Origin: Acidobacteriota bacterium
GTDB taxonomy: Bacteria; Acidobacteriota; Vicinamibacteria; Vicinamibacterales; CAVVIG01
Direction: 5' to 3'
NCBI GenBank assembly: GCA_017883165.1
Contig: JADGOC010000031.1
Coordinates: forward strand, 1 to 32,023
Length of the DNA stretch: 32,023 nucleotides
Shown: positions 3,094-26,713 of the stretch, in pieces
Layout of the letters: each line of letters opens with the position of its first letter
Position numbering within the stretch: position 1 is the stretch's first letter
Program-made: the position numbers and the translations under genes
The notes under the pieces: model-generated
Database searches by the model: none
What the model was told of the DNA's origin: nothing
What the model saw: the letters and a program-made list of their open reading frames with translations, nothing else

Positions 3094-3151
3094 CTAGGCT
3101 GTTCCTGCGCTACATTTCGTAGCCTGTTGAAACAACCGGATGCAGGAAGCT

Positions 3152-3235
3152 GGCTAACCAGCGTTTGGAGCCGACGGCGCGCGCCTATCTCTTTAGTGGG
3201 CGGGTCGCGCCGCGGCTGAAACGCAATCGTTAGCC
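3152..3235 (+). other. attC-like recombination site 4
   Basis: This is the clearest site. R'' GGCTAAC (3152-3158) and R' GTTAGCC (3229-3235) are perfectly complementary. The inner arms GCGTTTGGAGCCG and CGGCTGAAACGC pair fully except for one extra base, the expected extrahelical base. A central stem (GGCGCG/CGCGCC) closes a variable loop. Total length is 84 bp. Confidence 0.9.
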
Positions 3236-5780: not shown

Positions 5781-5839
5781 AGGCCTCTCTCTGGTCAGCA
5801 GAACGGCGATGCTAGCACGGCTCGGAGCGCGAACGAGCC

Positions 5840-5912
5840 GTCTCACACGGTTTTGCAGCCGACGGCGGGAGGAGCGACAATGAGCCGCCGCGGCTGAAAC
5901 CTGGCGTTAGCC
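5840..5912 (+). other. attC-like recombination site 5 (R'' degenerate)
   Basis: R' GTTAGCC (5906-5912) and the inner arms GGTTTTGCAGCCG and CGGCTGAAACC are intact and nearly identical to those of sites 3 and 4. The R'' position holds GTCTCAC (5840-5846), which has lost the AAC end, so the outer stem is weakened. This is the last convincing attC before the backbone. Confidence 0.75.
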
Positions 5913-5937
5913 AGCAGGATTTTGGAGGAGCTTCGAC

Positions 5938-14873: not shown

Positions 14874-16589
14874 ATGAACGAACCCCACACGCCGGCGGCC
14901 GCGCCGGTCGATTTCATTCGGACGATCGTCGAAAAGGACGCGGCGTCAGGCAAGCATGGCGGACGCGTCGCGACGCGGTTTCCCCCAGAGCCGAACGGCT
15001 ATCTCCACATCGGCCACGCCAAGTCGATCTGCCTGAACTTCGGCGTCGCGCGGGAGTTCGGCGGCACCTGCAACCTGCGGTTCGACGACACGAACCCGGC
15101 CAAGGAAGACGTCGAGTACGTCGATGCGATCAAAGAAGACGTCGAGTGGCTCGGTTTCCGCTGGGACGCGCTCTTCTACGCCTCGGACTATTTCGAGCCG
15201 CTCTATCAATTCGCGGTCGCGCTCATCACGAGCGGCAGGGCGTACGTCGACAGCCTGACCGGCGACGAGATCCGGCAGCACCGCGGGACGCTGACCGAGC
15301 CTGGGACGAACAGTCCGTACCGCGATCGATCCGTCGAGGAAAACCTGGATCTGTTCGCGCGAATGCGCGCCGGCGAGTTCCCCGACGGCGTCCACGTGCT
15401 CAGGGCGAAGATCGACATGGCGTCGCCCAACTTCAACATGCGCGATCCGGCCCTCTACCGGATCCGTCACGCGACGCACCACCGCACGGGCGACACCTGG
15501 TGCATCTATCCGATGTACGACTTCGCGCATCCGCTGTCGGATGCGCTCGAGCGGATCACGCATTCGCTGTGCACGCTCGAGTTCGAGGATCACCGGCCGC
15601 TGTACGACTGGCTGGTGACGAACCTGGCCGTGTCTCCGGACGGCGGCCGGCCGCAGCAGATCGAATTCGCGCGGCTCAATCTGAACTACACCGTGATGAG
15701 CAAGCGCAAGCTGCTGCAGCTCGTGCAGCAGAACGTCGTCTCGGGCTGGGACGATCCGCGGATGCCGACGATCACCGGCCTGCGCCGCCGCGGGTACACC
15801 CCGGAGTCGATCCGCGATTTCTGCAGCCGGATCGGCGTGGCGAAAAAAGAAAACGTCATCGACATGGCGCAGCTCGAGCACGCCATTCGCGAGGATCTGA
15901 ACGCGCGCGCCCGGCGCGTGATGGCGGTGCTGCGTCCGTTGAAGGTCGTCATCACGAATTATCCGGAAGGGCAGACCGAGGAGGTCGACGTCATCAACAA
16001 CCCGGAGGACGCGTCAGCGGGCACGCGCAAGGTGCCGTTCTCGCGCGTGCTGTACATCGAGCGCGACGACTTCCGCGAGGATCCGCCGAAGAAGTTCTTT
16101 CGCCTGTCGCCGGGCAAGGAGGTCCGGCTGCGCTGTGCGTATTTCCTCACCTGCACGGGCGTCGTGAAAGACGATCGCGGCGAGGTCGCGGAACTGCGCT
16201 GCACCTACGACCCGGCGACGCGCGGCGGCGACTCGCCAGACGGCCGGCGCGTGAAGGCGACCCTCCACTGGGTGTCGGCCGCGCACGCGATTGGCGCCGA
16301 AGTACGACTGTACGATCGGCTCTTCTCGGTCGACGATCCCGAGAAGGCGGCCGATGGGAAGACGTTTCTCGACAACATCAACCCGAACTCGCTCGAGGTG
16401 CTGACGACGTGCCAGGTCGAGCCCAGCCTTGCATCGGCCGCGCCCGGCGCGCGGTTTCAATTCGAGCGTCTCGGATATTTTTGCGTCGATCCCGACGCGA
16501 AGCCAGGCGCACTCGTCTTCAACCGCACGGTGTCGCTGCGGGACGCCTGGACGAAGCTCGAAAAGCGAAACGCAGAGACGCCGAGATGA
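14874..16589 (+). CDS. glnS: Glutaminyl-tRNA synthetase
   Basis: The 571-aa product catalyses ATP-dependent charging of tRNA-Gln in the cytosol. It shows the class I signatures: [15 protein letters not shown] with HIGH at residues 45-48, and the KMSKS-equivalent VMSKRKL near residue 275. RFDDTNP is the Gln-specific hallmark in the Rossmann fold. [10 protein letters not shown] and [17 protein letters not shown] are conserved GlnRS blocks. The C-terminal beta-barrel anticodon-binding domain starts near residue 345 ([35 protein letters not shown]). Length matches bacterial GlnRS. The stop overlaps the esterase start by four bases (ATGA), suggesting translational coupling. Confidence 0.97.
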
Positions 16590-17434
16590 AATTGCCACAG
16601 AGCCACAAAGGGACAGAGAGAACAGTGGCTCTGTGTCTTAGTGCCTCTGTGGCTCTGTTCCTCTGTGCCTCACCGTCCTCTGCGTCTGCTTTCGAGCACC
16701 CAGGCAAGGTCGATGTCCGTCAGTTTCACAGCCGCGTCCTGAACGCCGACCGAACGGTGCGCGTGTGGCAGCCGGCCCATACGCGGCGCGGCGTCCGGTA
16801 TTCGGTGCTCTATCTGAACGACGGGCAGAATCTGTTTCGCGACGGCGATCCGGATTCGGGCGGCGGCGGCTGGCACGTCGACGACACCGCCGCGCGGCTC
16901 ATCGACGAGCACGTGGTCGATCCGCTGATCGTGGTCGGGATCGACAACGCCGGCGACGAGGCACGCGGCGTCGACTATCTGCCGCCAACCGCCGACCGTT
17001 ACCTGCAGTTCGTGATCGACGAGTTGATGCCGTTCATCAACAAGAAGTATCCGACGCTCGTCGGCCCGGCCCATACCGGCTTCGGCGGATCGTCGTACGG
17101 CGCCGCGTGCGCCTTCTACGCGACCCTCGCGCGCGCCGGCGTGTTCGGCCGTCTGCTCCTCGAGAGCCCGTCGGTCGGCGCCGGCAACGGCCTGATGCTC
17201 GATCGGGCCAGAACAATGACGAGCTGGCCCGAGCGGATCGTGATCGGCATCGGCACGGGAGAAGGCCGCGGCGGGCGCGGCCCGAGCGCCGTGCAGACGC
17301 TCGGCCAGATCCTCGCGAACGCCGGCCTCGGCGACAATCGCCTGAAGGTGGTCGTCCAGGAAGGCGGCCGCCACAACGAAGCGTCGTGGGCGTCGCGCTT
17401 TCCCGACGCTCTCGCGTTCTTGTTCCGACGATAA
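16586..17434 (+). CDS. Exported esterase (PF00756-type alpha/beta hydrolase)
   Basis: The 282-aa product resembles enterochelin-esterase/esterase-D-like enzymes: [24 protein letters not shown], the nucleophile elbow [17 protein letters not shown] and the late His in [10 protein letters not shown]. It probably cleaves an ester in the periplasm; substrate unknown. The first 36 residues form a signal peptide: a polar start ([13 protein letters not shown]), a hydrophobic core ([15 protein letters not shown]) and a cleavage-like SASA before FEHPG. This whole leader is encoded by a palindromic heptad repeat (see the repeat entry). The start ATG overlaps the glnS stop, so ribosomes reach it by coupling. 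Confidence 0.9.
16596..16690 (+). repeat. Palindromic heptad-type repeat forming the esterase signal peptide
   Basis: CACAGAGCCAC (16596-16606) is the exact inverse complement of GTGGCTCTGTG (16625-16635). A second near copy, GTGGCTCTGT, follows from 16649. The right half reads as CTCTGTG/CCTCTGT units with a period near 7 nt. The left arm is translated as polar residues and the right as Val/Ala/Leu/Cys/Phe, forming the leader of the esterase. The element lies right at the glnS stop. Confidence 0.75.
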
Positions 17435-17745: not shown

Positions 17746-17779
17746 AATCAGCCTGGAAACGGCTCAGACCGGTCGGTAT

Positions 17780-17886
17780 GGGGTGATGGAGTTAAGTGGT
17801 GATGGGTTGATGTAGGTTCGGCCCCATCATTTCCATCACGCCGTCACTCCATCACTCCATCACTCCATCACCCCATCACCCCATCA
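17780..17886. repeat. 9-bp tandem repeats with inverted copy between convergent genes
   Basis: On the right, CATCACTCC and CATCACCCC units repeat in tandem (about 17844-17886). On the left, GGGGTGATGGAG (17780-17791) is the exact inverse complement of CTCCATCACCCC (17863-17874), and GGTGATGGG also recurs. The stretch can fold into a long hairpin. It lies between the amidase remnant and the stop of the BNR protein and could act as a bidirectional transcription barrier. Confidence 0.8.
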
Positions 17887-17896
17887 CCAAATTTCG

Positions 17897-21638: not shown

Positions 21639-22133
21639 ATGACTCCGAATACTCCGTATTCCGCATACCTCGGCGACCGCGAGCCGATCGCGTCGATGCG
21701 TGATACCTCCGAGCGCATCCGTGCGCTGACCGACGGCTGGTCGCGGCCGCAGTTCGAGCGCACGTATGCGCCGGGGAAGTGGACCGCGCGCCAGATCCTC
21801 ACGCACCTGGCCGAAACCGAGATGGCGCTTGGCTATCGTGTGCGCATGGCGCTCTGTTCGCCCGGCTACGTGGCGCAGCCCTTCGATCAGGATGCGTGGA
21901 TCGTGAAGGAATCGCGGACGACCGGCGCCGAGGCCGCCGCCGCGCGCTTCGCGCTACGGCAGATGAATCTGTCGCTCTTCGCCGCTTTGTCGGCCGCCGA
22001 GCGCCAGACGCCGTTCACGCACCCCGAGTCCGGCGCGCTCACCGTCGACTGGGTAATCCATCAGATGGCGGGACACGACCTCAATCACGTGCAGCAGCTC
22101 GAGACGATTGCCGCGTCGCCGTCTCCCGTATAG
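21639..22133 (+). CDS. DinB-superfamily protein
   Basis: The 164-aa product is a DinB_2 four-helix bundle: ERIRALTDGWSRPQFERTYA, PGKWTARQILTHLAETEMAL with the first metal-binding His, and VIHQMAGHDLNHVQQLETIA with the two later His. The metal site looks complete. Family members include mycothiol- and bacillithiol-dependent enzymes, but most, like this one, have no assigned reaction. ATG 21639 is preceded by GGAGAG. Its last 53 bases overlap, antisense, the end of the convergent M20 peptidase gene. Confidence 0.92.
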   Translation: MTPNTPYSAYLGDREPIASMRDTSERIRALTDGWSRPQFERTYAPGKWTARQILTHLAETEMALGYRVRMALCSPGYVAQPFDQDAWIVKESRTTGAEAAAARFALRQMNLSLFAALSAAERQTPFTHPESGALTVDWVIHQMAGHDLNHVQQLETIAASPSPV

Positions 22134-23523
22134 CCTCGAAAAACACTTGCGCCGCCTCAGGAATCGCGTCGAGCCTGACGTGCTCGGCGTCGCCGTGCAT
22201 CGACGCGACCTCGTCGGCGGACACGGGGGCGGGAAAGATGCCGTAGCTCGTGACGCCGCGCGGCCGGAAGGCGTTCGAATCGGTGCCGTACGGCACCAGG
22301 ATCGGCGTGATCACGGCATCGGGGTGGCGCCGGTGAATCGCCGCCTCGAGACTCCGATAGAGCGGCGTGTCCTGCGGCGACACGATGGGGTCGTCCGACT
22401 CGCTGATCACGTCGATCTCGAGCCCGGGATCGCCGAGCCCGCGGCGGATGTCGGCGAGCCACTGGTCGCGCGTGGTGCCCGGCAGCACGCGGCAGTCGAG
22501 CGTCGCCTCGGCGACCGACGGGATCACGTTCGCCTTCGGCGGATCGCCGACGCCCGATCGGATCGTCGTCACCGCGATGGTCGAGTGCTGGATCGCGTTG
22601 GTGAACTTGTTGATCGCGAAGGCGCCGACCCGCTCGTGCATCGTGCTCATCAGCCCGGATGCGACAGAAGAGGCTGACGGACCGGGCAGGGGTTCGGCGA
22701 GGAGACGCGCGAGCGCACGAACCAGCCGATCGTTCGGGTTCTGATCGTTTGGCTGGCTGCCGTGTCCCGCGACGCCCGTCGCGCGCACCTTGAGCCAGAG
22801 GAGTTTCTTTTCGGCGACCGAGATGCCGTACACCAGCTTGCCGGCCGTGAAGAGATCCGGGCTGCCGAAGCCGCCTTCGTCCAGCACGAACTCGGGATCG
22901 AGCTCGGCGTAATGATTCGCGATCATCCAGCGTGCGCCCATCGCGCCGCCGACTTCCTCGTCCGGCTCGGCCAGGAGAATCACGTCGCGCGCGAGCGGCA
23001 CGTGCTGCCGCTTGAGCATGAGGAACGCCATGAGGTGTGCGACGCCGAGGCCTTTCATGTCGAGCGCGCCGCGCGCGCGCATCTCGCCGCCGACGATCGT
23101 GGCGGCGAACGGGTCGACCTTCCATTGCGAGCGGTCGGCCGGCACCACGTCCATGTGATGAAGCAGCAGAATCGCCTTGCCCGCCGCCGGTGTCATCGTC
23201 GCCTTGAGGCGCGCGTAGATGATCGCCTTGCCCGGCGCCGATTCGTACCGCGTCACCGGGATGCCCTCGCGCTCGAACACCGACGCGAGGAAGTCGGCCG
23301 TCTTGCGCGTGTCGCCCGGAGGATTCGATGTGTCGATGCTTACATACTGCTGGAGGAGTTGAGTCGCCTCGGCGCCTACAGCCTTCCAATCGGGTGCCTG
23401 TACACCTATCGCGCGCTGAGCAACCACTAAGGACACCAAGGACACAAAGGTAAAGGCCAACCAGGTTTTCCTTCGTGTCCTTGGTGTCCTTTGTGGTGAA
23501 TCAGTCTTCGAATGGCCCTTCAT
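22081..23523 (-). CDS. Exported M20-family metallopeptidase
   Basis: The 480-aa product is a zinc peptidase of the M20/ArgE/DapE group. LLLHHMDVVP gives zinc ligand His123 and Asp125. RGALDMKG gives the bridging Asp155. AEPDEEVGG gives the catalytic Glu189 and Glu190. VLDEGG and the late SMHGDAEHVRLD provide further ligands. The dimerisation lid spans about residues 260-370. The N-terminus is a signal peptide: basic QRTPRTRRKTW, hydrophobic LAFTFVSLVSLVV, then AQRAIGVQA; it is encoded by a palindromic heptad element. The start ATG overlaps the asparaginase stop (ATGA). It likely hydrolyses short peptides or N-acyl amino acids in the periplasm. Confidence 0.94.
   Translation of the reverse strand: MKGHSKTDSPQRTPRTRRKTWLAFTFVSLVSLVVAQRAIGVQAPDWKAVGAEATQLLQQYVSIDTSNPPGDTRKTADFLASVFEREGIPVTRYESAPGKAIIYARLKATMTPAAGKAILLLHHMDVVPADRSQWKVDPFAATIVGGEMRARGALDMKGLGVAHLMAFLMLKRQHVPLARDVILLAEPDEEVGGAMGARWMIANHYAELDPEFVLDEGGFGSPDLFTAGKLVYGISVAEKKLLWLKVRATGVAGHGSQPNDQNPNDRLVRALARLLAEPLPGPSASSVASGLMSTMHERVGAFAINKFTNAIQHSTIAVTTIRSGVGDPPKANVIPSVAEATLDCRVLPGTTRDQWLADIRRGLGDPGLEIDVISESDDPIVSPQDTPLYRSLEAAIHRRHPDAVITPILVPYGTDSNAFRPRGVTSYGIFPAPVSADEVASMHGDAEHVRLDAIPEAAQVFFEAIRETATRQSSRAAARD
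23423..23497. repeat. Palindromic heptad element inside the M20 peptidase leader
   Basis: Two 28-nt arms (23423-23450 and 23470-23497) are inverse complements with two mismatches and a 19-nt loop. Each arm is built from units like AAGGACACC with a near-7-nt period. In the coding strand, the first arm reads as Gln/Arg/Thr/Pro and the second as Phe/Val/Ser/Leu, giving the n- and h-regions of the signal peptide. Similar CTTCGTGTCCTTGGTGTCC elements are known to me as dispersed intergenic repeats in related genomes. Confidence 0.88.
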
Positions 23524-24011
23524 ATCGACTCAAACACTCCCGTTTCGCGATTCTTGCGCACCCGGTCCCATGGAAAGTACCGGCCGTTCATCGCGACATA
23601 CACGCCGGGCGGCAGCACCTGCACGAACGACAGCGCGCTCCCCAGATTGAAAAGTCCGTCAGAGCTCCCGAACGCGTACGGAATCATCGCGCCCGTCAGC
23701 ACGATGGTTCGGCCGGCGGCATCAGGAAACGCGGCGGCGAGCGCCCGCGCCGTCTCGGCCATCGTGTCGGTGCCGTGGGTGATGAGCACGCGCGGCTCGG
23801 CCGCTTGCTTGCACCGCTCGACGATCAGCGCGCGGTCGGCGTCGGTCATGTCGAGGCTGTCGATCATCATCAGCGTGGTGACCGAGACGTCGAGCCGGCA
23901 GCGTCCAAGCCGCAGCATTTCAGAGAGATGGGTCTCGTTGAACGCCAGCGAGCCGGTTAGCTCGTTGTATTCCTTGTCGAACGTCCCGCCGGTTACGAAG
24001 ATGCGGATCAC
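23520..24011 (-). CDS. Asparaginase-domain protein (N-terminal domain only)
   Basis: The 163-aa product has the asparaginase core: IRIFVTGGTFDKEYNEL with the nucleophile Thr in GGTFD, LITHGTDTMAETARAL with the second catalytic Thr-Asp pair, and TIVLTGAMIPYAFGSSDGLF. It ends after the first domain, so it belongs to the short single-domain group rather than the 330-aa enzymes; activity on asparagine is likely but not certain. The GTG at 24011 (VIRIF) is the probable start. An upstream in-frame TTG would add residues encoded by a heptad repeat. The stop overlaps the M20 start by four bases. No signal peptide, so cytosolic. Confidence 0.88.
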   Translation of the reverse strand: MIRIFVTGGTFDKEYNELTGSLAFNETHLSEMLRLGRCRLDVSVTTLMMIDSLDMTDADRALIVERCKQAAEPRVLITHGTDTMAETARALAAAFPDAAGRTIVLTGAMIPYAFGSSDGLFNLGSALSFVQVLPPGVYVAMNGRYFPWDRVRKNRETGVFESI

Positions 24012-24015
24012 GATC

Positions 24016-24043
24016 GGTTCAGGGTTCAAGGTTCAGGGTTCTG
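24016..24043. repeat. Four GGTTCNN heptads at the M14/asparaginase junction
   Basis: Exact 7-nt period: GGTTCAG, GGTTCAA, GGTTCAG, GGTTCTG. On the minus strand this encodes the last residues of the M14 peptidase (QNPEP) and contains its TGA stop (24026-24028), formed by the repeat. It ends just before the asparaginase GTG, replacing the normal ribosome-binding region. The same heptad occurs at 24769-24831. Confidence 0.85.
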
Positions 24044-26713
24044 GGTCGTGGAAAGATACAGTGCGTTGAAGAGCAGTGGAAACGTCGTGTGCGTCTGCGC
24101 GCGGTGCTGTGGGCGCAGGCCGAACAGGACGACGCGCCCTGGGCTCATGTCGATCGAGACGACCGCCGCGCGCCCCGCCATCAATTCTTCGCCTTTCAGC
24201 CAGCCGGACGCGAGCACATTCGTGTTCGGGTACCTCGCGATGACAGTCGTCTTCTGCGAGGCGAAGCCTTCGACGAGCGTGAAGAACGGGCTGTTGATGT
24301 AGAAGCCGTAGGTCTCCGGCGCGACGCCGTAGCCGAACGGGCTCGCCGTGTCGACTTCGAGCCGCAGAATGGCGCCCGGTGCGAAATGCTGATCGCGCGA
24401 CAGGCCGCGCTTGAGATCGCGCACGGGAATGGGCAGCCGGTCGATCGCCAGATCGCACGCATTCCCCATCGTGATGAGCGTGCCGCCGTCGGCGATGAAC
24501 TGCTTCAGGTTGTCCACGCCGGCCTCGCCGATGCCGCCGCGATATTCCGGGCGGATGGCGGGAGCGTCGAAGCCGTCCACGATGTCGCGCGGGTTCTGAT
24601 CGGCCAGGATGATCGCGTCGAACTTCTGGCGCAGCTTGCCGCCCCGGATGTCGTCGTTGTGAATGGAGGTGAGGTTGAACTCGTATTGTTCGAGCACCCA
24701 GCGCGTCCATCCCTCGTCCATGTTCCCGCCGGTCCACGGCTGATACATCGCGACGCGCGGCGCACGAAGGTTCCGGGTTCGGGGTTCAGGGTTCAGGGTT
24801 CGCGGTTCGGGGTTCGCGGTTCGAGGTTCGGCGGCCGCCTTCACCGACAGCCCGAGATCTTTCGCGATCTGGTCGATCTTCGATCGCGGCACACCGGTCA
24901 CGGCCACGCGCGAGGGCGCTTCGAACGAGACGTGCGCGCCGTCCTTCAACAGCCTGTTGATCGCGATCGCGGTGTCCGGCCCCTTGTCGTCGAACGTGAA
25001 CCGCGTGCCGCTGCCGTCGACGCCGCCCGGCACCGCCGGAAAGCTGGCCACGGGCGTCAGCTTCAGCGACGCGGGCAGCGCATCCTTCACGAACACCGTG
25101 TCGACGCCGAGCAGCATGCCGAGCGACCAGGCGGTGACGTCATAGGGCGCTTCGGGCGGCGCGGAGGGTGCGCGCCGGACCTCCGGATACGTCTGCTTCT
25201 CGAGCATGTCCTTCGCGTAGCGCGCGAACACCTGCGTCATCGGCATCACGAACGTGCCTGCGCCATATTTCTTACCGTCGGCTTCGAATGCGGCGCCGGC
25301 GCGATACACGTCCACGCCGCCCATGTGCAGCCGATCGACCAGGTGCACCGCTTCGCGCGCGTCGTGCTGCGGCTCGATCGGCACGAGAATCGCCGACGGG
25401 TTGCTCTTCTTGCCGTCCTCGATCGTCGCGCGATTCACCTCGTAGATCTGCCGCACGATGGTTTCCCGTCGATCCGCCGCCGTCTCGAGCAGCGCCATCG
25501 TCGCAATCATTTCGTAGTCGACGATGTCGCGGAGGGTCCAGTGGCCGCCCATCCAGGGTCTGGGATATTCGGTGCGCGGGTTGATGTCGGTTGGAGGAGG
25601 CAGCGGATTCAGGTTGAAGCGGCCGCCGCCCTCGACGGGTCCGCCGCCGGCCGCACCAGGGGCGCCGCGCCCACCGCCGTCGGCCGGCGCGCCGCGACCC
25701 GAGCCGGCACGCTGCTGATCGATCGGCGCCGCGATGCGGGCGCTCGCGACTTCCGTGAGGAGGCCAATCTGGTTGTGCCACCAGCCGCTCCACGCCATCG
25801 CGCCTTCCCAGAAGTTCGTGTACGTCGCGTTGTAGATGATCCCTTCCTTGCCGGCCGCCTCAAGCGCGGCCGCCTGCGATTGCCCGAGGATGCCGTTCCA
25901 GCGATAGATCAGCGGGTGCACGTTCACGTTGATCGGGTCGGTCGCCGGCATGACGAAAATCCGCGCGCCGTTGCTGCCCTGCTGGTGCTCGTCGAGCCAG
26001 ACGGAAGGGAACCAGTCGTGCCACAGCAACTGCGCCGTGTACTCGCTCTCTTTCTGCGTGAACATGTACATGTCGCGGTTGTTGTCGTGGCCGACGTAGG
26101 GGTGGTAGAGGTACGGGATCGGGCTCGCTTCGTACGGCGTGCCGACGTTCTTGTTGAACCAGTCGGTCACCAGGATCTCGCCGTCGGGATTGAGGCTCGG
26201 CACGAGCACGAAGATCACGTTGTCCAGGATCTTCTTCACCTCCGGCGAATCTTCGGTGGCGAGCCGGTGCACGAGCTCCACCGACATCTGCGTCGCGCCG
26301 ATCTCGGTGGCGTGGATGCTGCAGGTGATGAGCAGCACGACCTTGCCCTGCCTGAAGATCTCGTCGCGTTCGCTGTCGGACGGCGCGCCGCCTTGGAAGT
26401 ACAGCTTGCGCTCCATCTGCTTGTAGCGGTCGAGGTTCTTCAGCGTGTCGGGCGCGCTGATTTCGAGCGCGATGAACGGATTGCCGCTCGACGTCTTGCC
26501 AAGCTCGCGATAGCGCACGCGATCGGATCCGGCCGCCGCCAGCTTCATGTACTCGACGACTTTGTCCCAGCGAACGAGCTTGTTGTCGGCGCCGACCTTG
26601 AAGCCGAGGAACTGCTCGGGCGATTGGAGCGAGCCCGAGGCCCCGGACACGATCGCGCCTGCGATGAGCAAGGTGGCCGAGAGGAGACCGGCGTGGCGGA
26701 GGTGGCGTTTCAT
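24026..26713 (-). CDS. Exported M14-family zinc carboxypeptidase
   Basis: The 895-aa product has a signal peptide (MKRHLRHAGLLSATLLIAGA then IVSGASG). The catalytic M14 domain spans roughly residues 45-400. HATE gives zinc ligands His134 and Glu137. NNRD at 211-214 holds the substrate-binding Asn-Arg. DEHQQG gives His243. A Gly-rich insert lies near 390-420. The C-terminal half includes a linker of EPRTANP-like heptapeptides (about 628-648) and a Rossmann-like segment (VAMYQPWTGG; FDAIILADQNPRDI; FIADGGTLITMGNACD) that resembles a class-I glutamine-amidotransferase-like fold. It is probably a periplasmic peptidase. ATG 26713 follows AGTATA on the plus strand (TATACT on the coding strand), so the transcript may be leaderless. 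Confidence 0.93.
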   Translation of the reverse strand: MKRHLRHAGLLSATLLIAGAIVSGASGSLQSPEQFLGFKVGADNKLVRWDKVVEYMKLAAAGSDRVRYRELGKTSSGNPFIALEISAPDTLKNLDRYKQMERKLYFQGGAPSDSERDEIFRQGKVVLLITCSIHATEIGATQMSVELVHRLATEDSPEVKKILDNVIFVLVPSLNPDGEILVTDWFNKNVGTPYEASPIPYLYHPYVGHDNNRDMYMFTQKESEYTAQLLWHDWFPSVWLDEHQQGSNGARIFVMPATDPINVNVHPLIYRWNGILGQSQAAALEAAGKEGIIYNATYTNFWEGAMAWSGWWHNQIGLLTEVASARIAAPIDQQRAGSGRGAPADGGGRGAPGAAGGGPVEGGGRFNLNPLPPPTDINPRTEYPRPWMGGHWTLRDIVDYEMIATMALLETAADRRETIVRQIYEVNRATIEDGKKSNPSAILVPIEPQHDAREAVHLVDRLHMGGVDVYRAGAAFEADGKKYGAGTFVMPMTQVFARYAKDMLEKQTYPEVRRAPSAPPEAPYDVTAWSLGMLLGVDTVFVKDALPASLKLTPVASFPAVPGGVDGSGTRFTFDDKGPDTAIAINRLLKDGAHVSFEAPSRVAVTGVPRSKIDQIAKDLGLSVKAAAEPRTANPEPRTLNPEPRTRNLRAPRVAMYQPWTGGNMDEGWTRWVLEQYEFNLTSIHNDDIRGGKLRQKFDAIILADQNPRDIVDGFDAPAIRPEYRGGIGEAGVDNLKQFIADGGTLITMGNACDLAIDRLPIPVRDLKRGLSRDQHFAPGAILRLEVDTASPFGYGVAPETYGFYINSPFFTLVEGFASQKTTVIARYPNTNVLASGWLKGEELMAGRAAVVSIDMSPGRVVLFGLRPQHRAQTHTTFPLLFNALYLSTTQNPEP
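24769..24831. repeat. Nine GGTTCNN heptads within the M14 peptidase gene
   Basis: Nine uninterrupted 7-nt units (GGTTCCG, GGTTCGG, GGTTCAG, GGTTCAG, GGTTCGC, GGTTCGG, GGTTCGC, GGTTCGA, GGTTCGG). As 63 nt they keep the frame, and three heptads equal seven codons, so they give a peptide heptad: EPRTANP, EPRTLNP, EPRTRNL. The peptide is a Pro-rich flexible linker between two domains. Confidence 0.92.

Follow-up and report, generated by a model that had tools for sequence, protein, structure and literature searches.

Does a palindromic DNA repeat lying inside a protein-coding gene supply that protein's export signal, and has this happened once or repeatedly? The question arises from an M20 peptidase gene in the window, i.e., the whole 32,023-nt stretch of DNA that was analysed. 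This stretch is contig C199 in a draft genome of 4.24 Mb, and the public genomes closest to it are MAGs of Acidobacteria, several of which carry the label gp6. Sequence comparisons indicate that, in a family of soil Acidobacteria, a dispersed palindrome has very probably been recruited repeatedly as an N-terminal export leader, replacing ordinary leaders.

The palindrome and leader of the M20 gene

The features of the M20 locus were as follows:
22081 to 23523, minus strand: M20 peptidase gene, 480 aa, predicted exported, leader MKGHSKTDSPQRTPRTRRKTWLAFTFVSLVSLVVAQRAIGVQA (ORF; Pfam M20, E = 2e-31)
23395 to 23523, minus strand: predicted signal peptide, 43 codons (hydropathy and charge)
23416 to 23504, no strand: dispersed palindromic repeat at its full pairing extent, 39-nt arms (pairing search, BLAST, fold)
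23470 to 23497, minus strand: purine-rich arm of the mRNA, coding for the basic n-region PQRTPRTRR (in-frame translation)
23451 to 23469, minus strand: 19-nt loop, coding for about KTWLAF (in-frame translation)
23423 to 23450, minus strand: pyrimidine-rich arm of the mRNA, coding for the hydrophobic core FVSLVSLVV (in-frame translation)
23520 to 24029, minus strand: upstream asparaginase-like gene, its stop overlapping the M20 start codon as ATGA (ORF, Pfam)

The arms at 23423-23450 (ACCACTAAGGACACCAAGGACACAAAGG) and 23470-23497, each 28 nt long and separated by a 19-nt loop, were reverse complements with exactly two mismatches. Both lay in frame within the first 40 codons of the M20 ORF (23523..22081, minus strand), and on recheck the original prediction was exact in its arms, mismatches, loop and coding location. 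Its term heptad did not hold: the repeating unit was 9 nt (AAGGACACN; TRF period 9). An unconstrained search widened the pairing to 39-nt arms (23416-23454 and 23466-23504) that were 85% complementary. The transcript of the M20 palindrome folded at -63 kcal/mol (z = -6.3), and Rfam gave no match for the palindrome. No second such arm pair was found in the rest of the window or in any of 20 mononucleotide-shuffled windows; these shuffles, together with the dispersed copies, ruled out a chance palindrome. The palindrome is distinct from the 7-nt GGTTCAG repeats that the window also contains.

Sec-type signal peptides have a positive n-region, an h-region of about 7-15 hydrophobic residues, and small residues at -1 and -3. 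The predicted M20 leader had an n-region charge of +6, the h-region FTFVSLVSLVV (Kyte-Doolittle 2.5), and the c-region VQA|PDW. Translation bore out the expected division of labour, one arm encoding the basic n-region and its inverse the hydrophobic core, while the c-region was host-gene sequence outside the repeat. At M20 the repeat lies within the coding sequence and would provide both the n-region and the h-region of a Sec-type signal peptide; the host gene would contribute the cleavage site.

This reading depends on the start codon. The ATGA overlap with the asparaginase-like stop supports use of the M20 start. A start downstream of the element, which would have spoken against the original prediction, was looked for and ruled out: no in-frame ATG, GTG or TTG occurred from the end of the element to a point already within the M20 domain (about residue 88).

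Copies of the repeat in the genome and the family

The element is a dispersed palindromic repeat of about 90 bp, REP/MITE-like, built of 9-nt units and usually found in short intergenic gaps. A BLAST search of its own genome gave 30 matches at E ≤ 10 and 12 at E ≤ 1e-6. The copy counts for this genome, which rest on BLAST and pattern searches, gave eight full palindromes, besides several arms that occurred singly. Four of the eight full copies formed predicted N-terminal signal peptides: those of M20, LptE (MSFHGKTATGIWLCVLCVLCGEFSAG|C), a HEAT-repeat protein (MHSCADSPPRTPRTPRLSNVGLYLCVLGVLCGESAIGLASGA|QEP), and one unknown protein with its start codon inside the element (MGTKIWIGIYLCVLGVLCGESVPRA|QS). 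The other four full copies and the single arms lay between genes. The excess of leaders in this genome (4/8) is one of small numbers.

For a first set of 117 copies, from 11 of 27 family genomes, the gene context was determined with a self-trained gene caller based on codon usage. Eleven formed the N-terminus of a protein whose gene has no start codon past the element; none was internal or C-terminal. In a second set, the sister subtype (GGACACGGAGG) in one genus, 7 of 40 copies were fusions and none was internal. Across both sets, 18 of 157 copies were predicted signal-peptide fusions, in 13 genes, as classified partly by eye and with a home-made gene caller in draft MAGs; no copy was internal or C-terminal, and the others were intergenic. 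The genome-wide count of copies at gene starts that had been proposed as a check thus went in favour of the original prediction, both in the window's own genome and in the family. At the level of predicted genes, the coding position of the repeat, its recurrence at N-termini and its absence from gene interiors were demonstrated.

The fused genes encoded M20, LptE, HEAT, PQQ dehydrogenase, an M28/TFR-type peptidase, an FG-GAP/TPR protein, DsbD, SCO1, a sulfatase, an M16 peptidase, a HupE-like protein, a PKD-like protein, and one unknown. Nearly all belong to families that we take to be normally exported or to start with an exported domain, and the exported status of M20, LptE and HEAT was also backed by ordinary leaders in orthologues. 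DsbD was fused in two genera and to two subtypes: G004 has the AAGGACAC type, G041 the other. Open frames through the element ahead of cytosolic-looking genes (enolase-, mdh-, accC- and lysS-like by eye) resembled fusions but were not counted as such, since each of these genes has a start codon of its own past the element.

Signal peptides were called from hydropathy and charge only, which are proxies rather than trained predictor scores. By these proxies, 17 repeat-derived leaders had n-region charges of 0 to +7 and Kyte-Doolittle cores of 1.6-3.6, as in Sec-type leaders, and their ranges overlapped those of ordinary orthologue leaders and of E. coli leaders. Some were long (43-54 aa), and the core of the PQQ dehydrogenase was weak (1.6). 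We infer that the repeat leader directs export.

A DNA profile built from intergenic copies only was used to search leader DNA. At E < 1e-5 it matched the leader DNA of LptE in 8 of 25 genomes and that of HEAT in 5 of 19, with weaker matches in three more genomes for each gene; M20 leader DNA was matched in several genomes. The same profile gave no match to shuffled or gene-internal control DNA. M20 leaders were of the repeat type in G000, G004, G016, G017 and SRVP_36, and ordinary in G020, G014, G026 and G018; the G020 leader was MKTILLAVLFLSIVLTPWPVRA|Q, and the M20 gene of the congeneric G004 had the repeat. In lipoprotein signal peptides the lipobox Cys directly follows the h-region, and this arrangement was found in the repeat leaders of LptE (Pfam E = 3e-16), with the Cys kept right after the repeat core as SAGC, TAGC or SSC in G000, G017, G041 and G024. 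LptE is essential in model Gram-negatives.

Orthologues sharing the leader without repeat sequence would also have counted against the proposal. Those free of the repeat had unrelated ordinary leaders and those bearing it had repeat-type leaders, i.e., comparison of orthologous sequences demonstrated replacement of the ordinary leader. With this result, the start codon and the count of copies in agreement, the core claim of a dispersed palindrome serving as a portable signal peptide was largely supported, its function being predicted. A resident copy would replace the ancestral leader, and LptE, the HEAT protein, M20 and DsbD would have been recruited in several genera, each with the subtype resident in the genome.

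Two leaders or groups of leaders stood apart. In the M20 leader of G017 (L075, upstream of 3001), one whole palindrome of the other subtype preceded a second arm belonging to the first subtype, so that the leader contained two hydrophobic stretches. The LptE leaders L222, L224, L220 and L226 (G010, G009, G008 and G014, respectively) were repeat-derived and partly degenerate in genomes where intergenic copies were scarce or undetected, as if leader copies of LptE could outlive the repeat family there.

Composition, insertion and selection

In the proposed mechanism one arm, being purine-rich, would yield R, K, T and P codons and the other, being T-rich, hydrophobic ones, so that a basic stretch is followed by a hydrophobic stretch. 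Because the repeat is a palindrome, its transcript runs from the purine-rich to the T-rich arm in either orientation. Over all copies, 96% had an open GTG-TCC frame and 94% a hydrophobic one; for the GTC frame the values were 83% and 79%, and for the TGT-CC frame 41% and 11%. The two open frames of the second arm read VSLVSLVV or LCVLGVLCGE; the third often hit a stop. A leader-like translation (an open, hydrophobic frame with a basic stretch before it) was obtained for 55% of copies in the GTG-TCC frame, 48% in the GTC frame and 8% in the TGT-CC frame, vs. 1.8% for random 90-mers of the same loci. Strand composition is the general cause, the T-rich arm being hydrophobic in two of three frames. 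The narrower rule first offered, a swap of A and T at codon position two on inversion, failed for M20, where position two pairs with position three, and applied to other fusions (e.g., L056, with K/D opposite L/V).

Since the second arm is open and hydrophobic in two frames, leader DNA at tight gene junctions would tolerate the repeat about as intergenic DNA does. Assuming that a quarter of genes are exported and have 25-codon leaders, leader DNA makes up about 1.6% of the genome and an estimated 8-14% of repeat-tolerant DNA; the observed fused fraction was 11% (18/157). This fraction is about what random insertion into tolerant DNA would give, which suggests that leader DNA behaves like intergenic DNA for the repeat and that tolerance is enough to explain the pattern. 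Signal peptides are very tolerant in sequence. The cause of the fusions would then be tolerance plus retention, and not a benefit of the insertion.

Leader and resident copies of a genome agreed in subtype, with GGACACGGAGG in genus g17 and AAGGACAC in G000. Repeat-type LptE leaders, including degenerate ones, occurred in 10 of 12 repeat-holding genomes vs. 3 of 13 others (p = 0.005, uncorrected for kinship). On a tree of LptE plus HEAT, the leader state changed at least six times for LptE and at least five times for HEAT. Except within a single genus, copies in the leaders of one gene resembled each other no more than they resembled copies elsewhere, and a nearest-copy analysis showed no clear phylogenetic signal of common descent among them. 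The recurrent leaders appear to be best explained by repeated insertion or repeated conversion, and we infer that the gains were separate insertions and not conversions of an older copy.

The strongest competing account, which we judge rather unlikely, is a single ancient insertion per gene that was inherited vertically, lost or degraded in some lineages, and later homogenised by gene conversion. It would account for the shared site in related genera and for degenerate remnants in G008, G009, G012 and G023, and on the tree losses were as parsimonious as gains. The lack of special likeness among the leader copies of one gene, the match of leader to resident subtype, and the differing DsbD subtypes of G004 and G041 argue against it, although each is still compatible with conversion.

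A selective origin, in which the repeat family was selected as signal-peptide-competent or the fused genes gained in expression or export, is unlikely to a greater degree. Two of three frames are open and hydrophobic, four of the eight full copies in the window's own genome are leaders, and a second repeat family behaves alike, all of which are in keeping with such selection. So is the frequency of start codons: in five fusions the first arm holds an in-frame ATG that can initiate translation (CNATGG, with AAGGA before it), and ATG-bearing arms made up 7 of 11 fused sense arms (five in frame) vs. 50 of 212 others (p = 0.007), a count that is small and not independent of the fusion call. Against selection, the fused fraction equals the estimated share of leaders in insertion-tolerant DNA. 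From its sequence, the repeat can supply its own start codon.

It is very improbable that the element is an ordinary intergenic hairpin (an mRNA stabiliser, attenuator or terminator-like structure) with translation starting after it and the leader an annotation artefact. In favour of this reading, copies between genes are the majority, a gene with its own start codon often follows 5-60 nt downstream, many of these copies have a chance open frame through the element, and the RNA hairpin is very stable. Against it, M20, LptE and the other fused genes lack a start codon anywhere from the element to the mature domain or the lipobox Cys, and repeat-free orthologues carry an ordinary leader at the same place.

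Recurrent recruitment of the palindrome as a leader remains the preferred reading. A wider version of it is offered tentatively: selfish palindromes that are signal-peptide-competent in two frames and sometimes bring their own start codon (CACCATGG after AAGGA) may have leader DNA as a regular niche and serve as portable start-plus-export cassettes, rewiring exported-protein leaders time and again, that of LptE among them, with unrelated families such as the 8-nt-unit repeat at 16594 doing alike.

Relation to known repeats and other repeats of the window

REP elements are short (20-40 bp) intergenic palindromes with a GTAG or CGTC tag and a companion RAYT (Y1) transposase. MITEs are recognised by terminal inverted repeats, a target-site duplication and a parent transposon. 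At about 90 bp and with 9-nt units, the Acidobacteria repeat is larger than REP elements, and by inspection its profile consensus has no terminal GTAG or CGTC tag. It resembles REP/BIME sequences and their RAYTs (PMC3733652) as a palindrome of short gaps with many copies per genome, and differs from them in its length, its internal unit, its coding copies, and the lack of a consistent link to a Y1 transposase. Y1 transposases occurred in 17 of the 27 genomes and did not track copy number: G000 had one Y1_Tnp, and G011, with at least 30 copies, had none. This mismatch speaks against mobilisation by RAYTs, and no mobilising enzyme was found for the repeat among the Y1 transposases of the 27 genomes.

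Rickettsia palindromic elements (RPE) are dispersed palindromes translated in frame within protein genes (Ogata et al., 2000, summarised in PMC10969869). The Acidobacteria repeat shares dispersal and in-frame translation with them. RPE occur in unrelated metabolic genes, whereas coding copies of the Acidobacteria repeat were all N-terminal leaders of exported or membrane proteins; insertion into genes of any kind, beyond leaders, was not seen among the 157 copies (18 N-terminal, none internal). In Yersinia, one predicted exported protein has a leader made partly of an RU-2 repeat, and the leaders of its relatives differ (Delihas, 2007; PMC2759123, PMC2229807). RU-2/YAPL and RU-1 (ERIC) of enterobacteria concern very few loci, in contrast to the 13 genes, LptE among them, several genera and two subtypes found here, and unlike them the Acidobacteria repeat gives both n- and h-regions. 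The palindromic tandem coding tracts of known repeat proteins also have a constrained protein-level property, but are neither dispersed intergenic repeats nor leaders.

In-frame palindromes (Rickettsia) and one leader partly made of a repeat (Yersinia RU-2) are thus already known. In the open-access papers searched, no report was found on palindromic repeats, signal peptides and Acidobacteria together, and a 2024 review on the MITEs of prokaryotes does not contain the term signal peptide. Nor did that literature yield a report of recurrent recruitment across many genes and genera, of n- and h-regions that a repeat supplies in full, or of a repeat kept out of gene interiors.

The source of new signal peptides is, to our knowledge, poorly documented. 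Here a definable repeat replaces the leaders of named proteins, with the states before and after present in relatives, which makes signal-peptide origin and turnover directly traceable. A dispersed repeat may act as a ready-made export tag, as predicted, and would offer a concrete route from selfish DNA to protein. Gene callers and repeat maskers perhaps mishandle such N-termini.

A second palindromic repeat of the window also lies at the start of a gene:
16586 to 17434, plus strand: esterase with a leader made by a different palindromic repeat of 8-nt units, its ATG overlapping the stop of a glnS-like ORF (14874-16589)
16594 to 16653, no strand: second palindromic repeat, arms 16594-16618 and 16629-16653, 84% complementary, also on two other contigs of the genome

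Its 8-nt units (CTCTGTGG) in the region 16586-16690 formed the predicted esterase signal peptide, again with an ATGA overlap. One of its two other genomic places was also an N-terminal leader (MITETQRHRETKPRRLCASVALWLSLLCASVAHVADA|APAW; G000:C223:1854-1937, L352). As this unrelated repeat also forms leaders, the phenomenon would not be limited to one repeat.

Further repeats were observed in the window. GGTTCAG heptads occurred at 24016-24046, where the C-terminus of the M14 peptidase (TQNPEP) meets the start of the asparaginase-like gene, and at 24769-24831, in frame inside the M14 gene (EPRTANPEPRTLNPEPRTRNL). Three attC-like sites at 1656-1729, about 3151-3235 and about 5837-5915 (GCCTAAC...GTTAGGC, GGCTAAC...GTTAGCC, and a third ending GTTAGCC) suggest a chromosomal-integron gene-cassette array at the left end of the window. 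At 17778-17888, a palindromic array of TCCATCAC units lay between two convergent genes.
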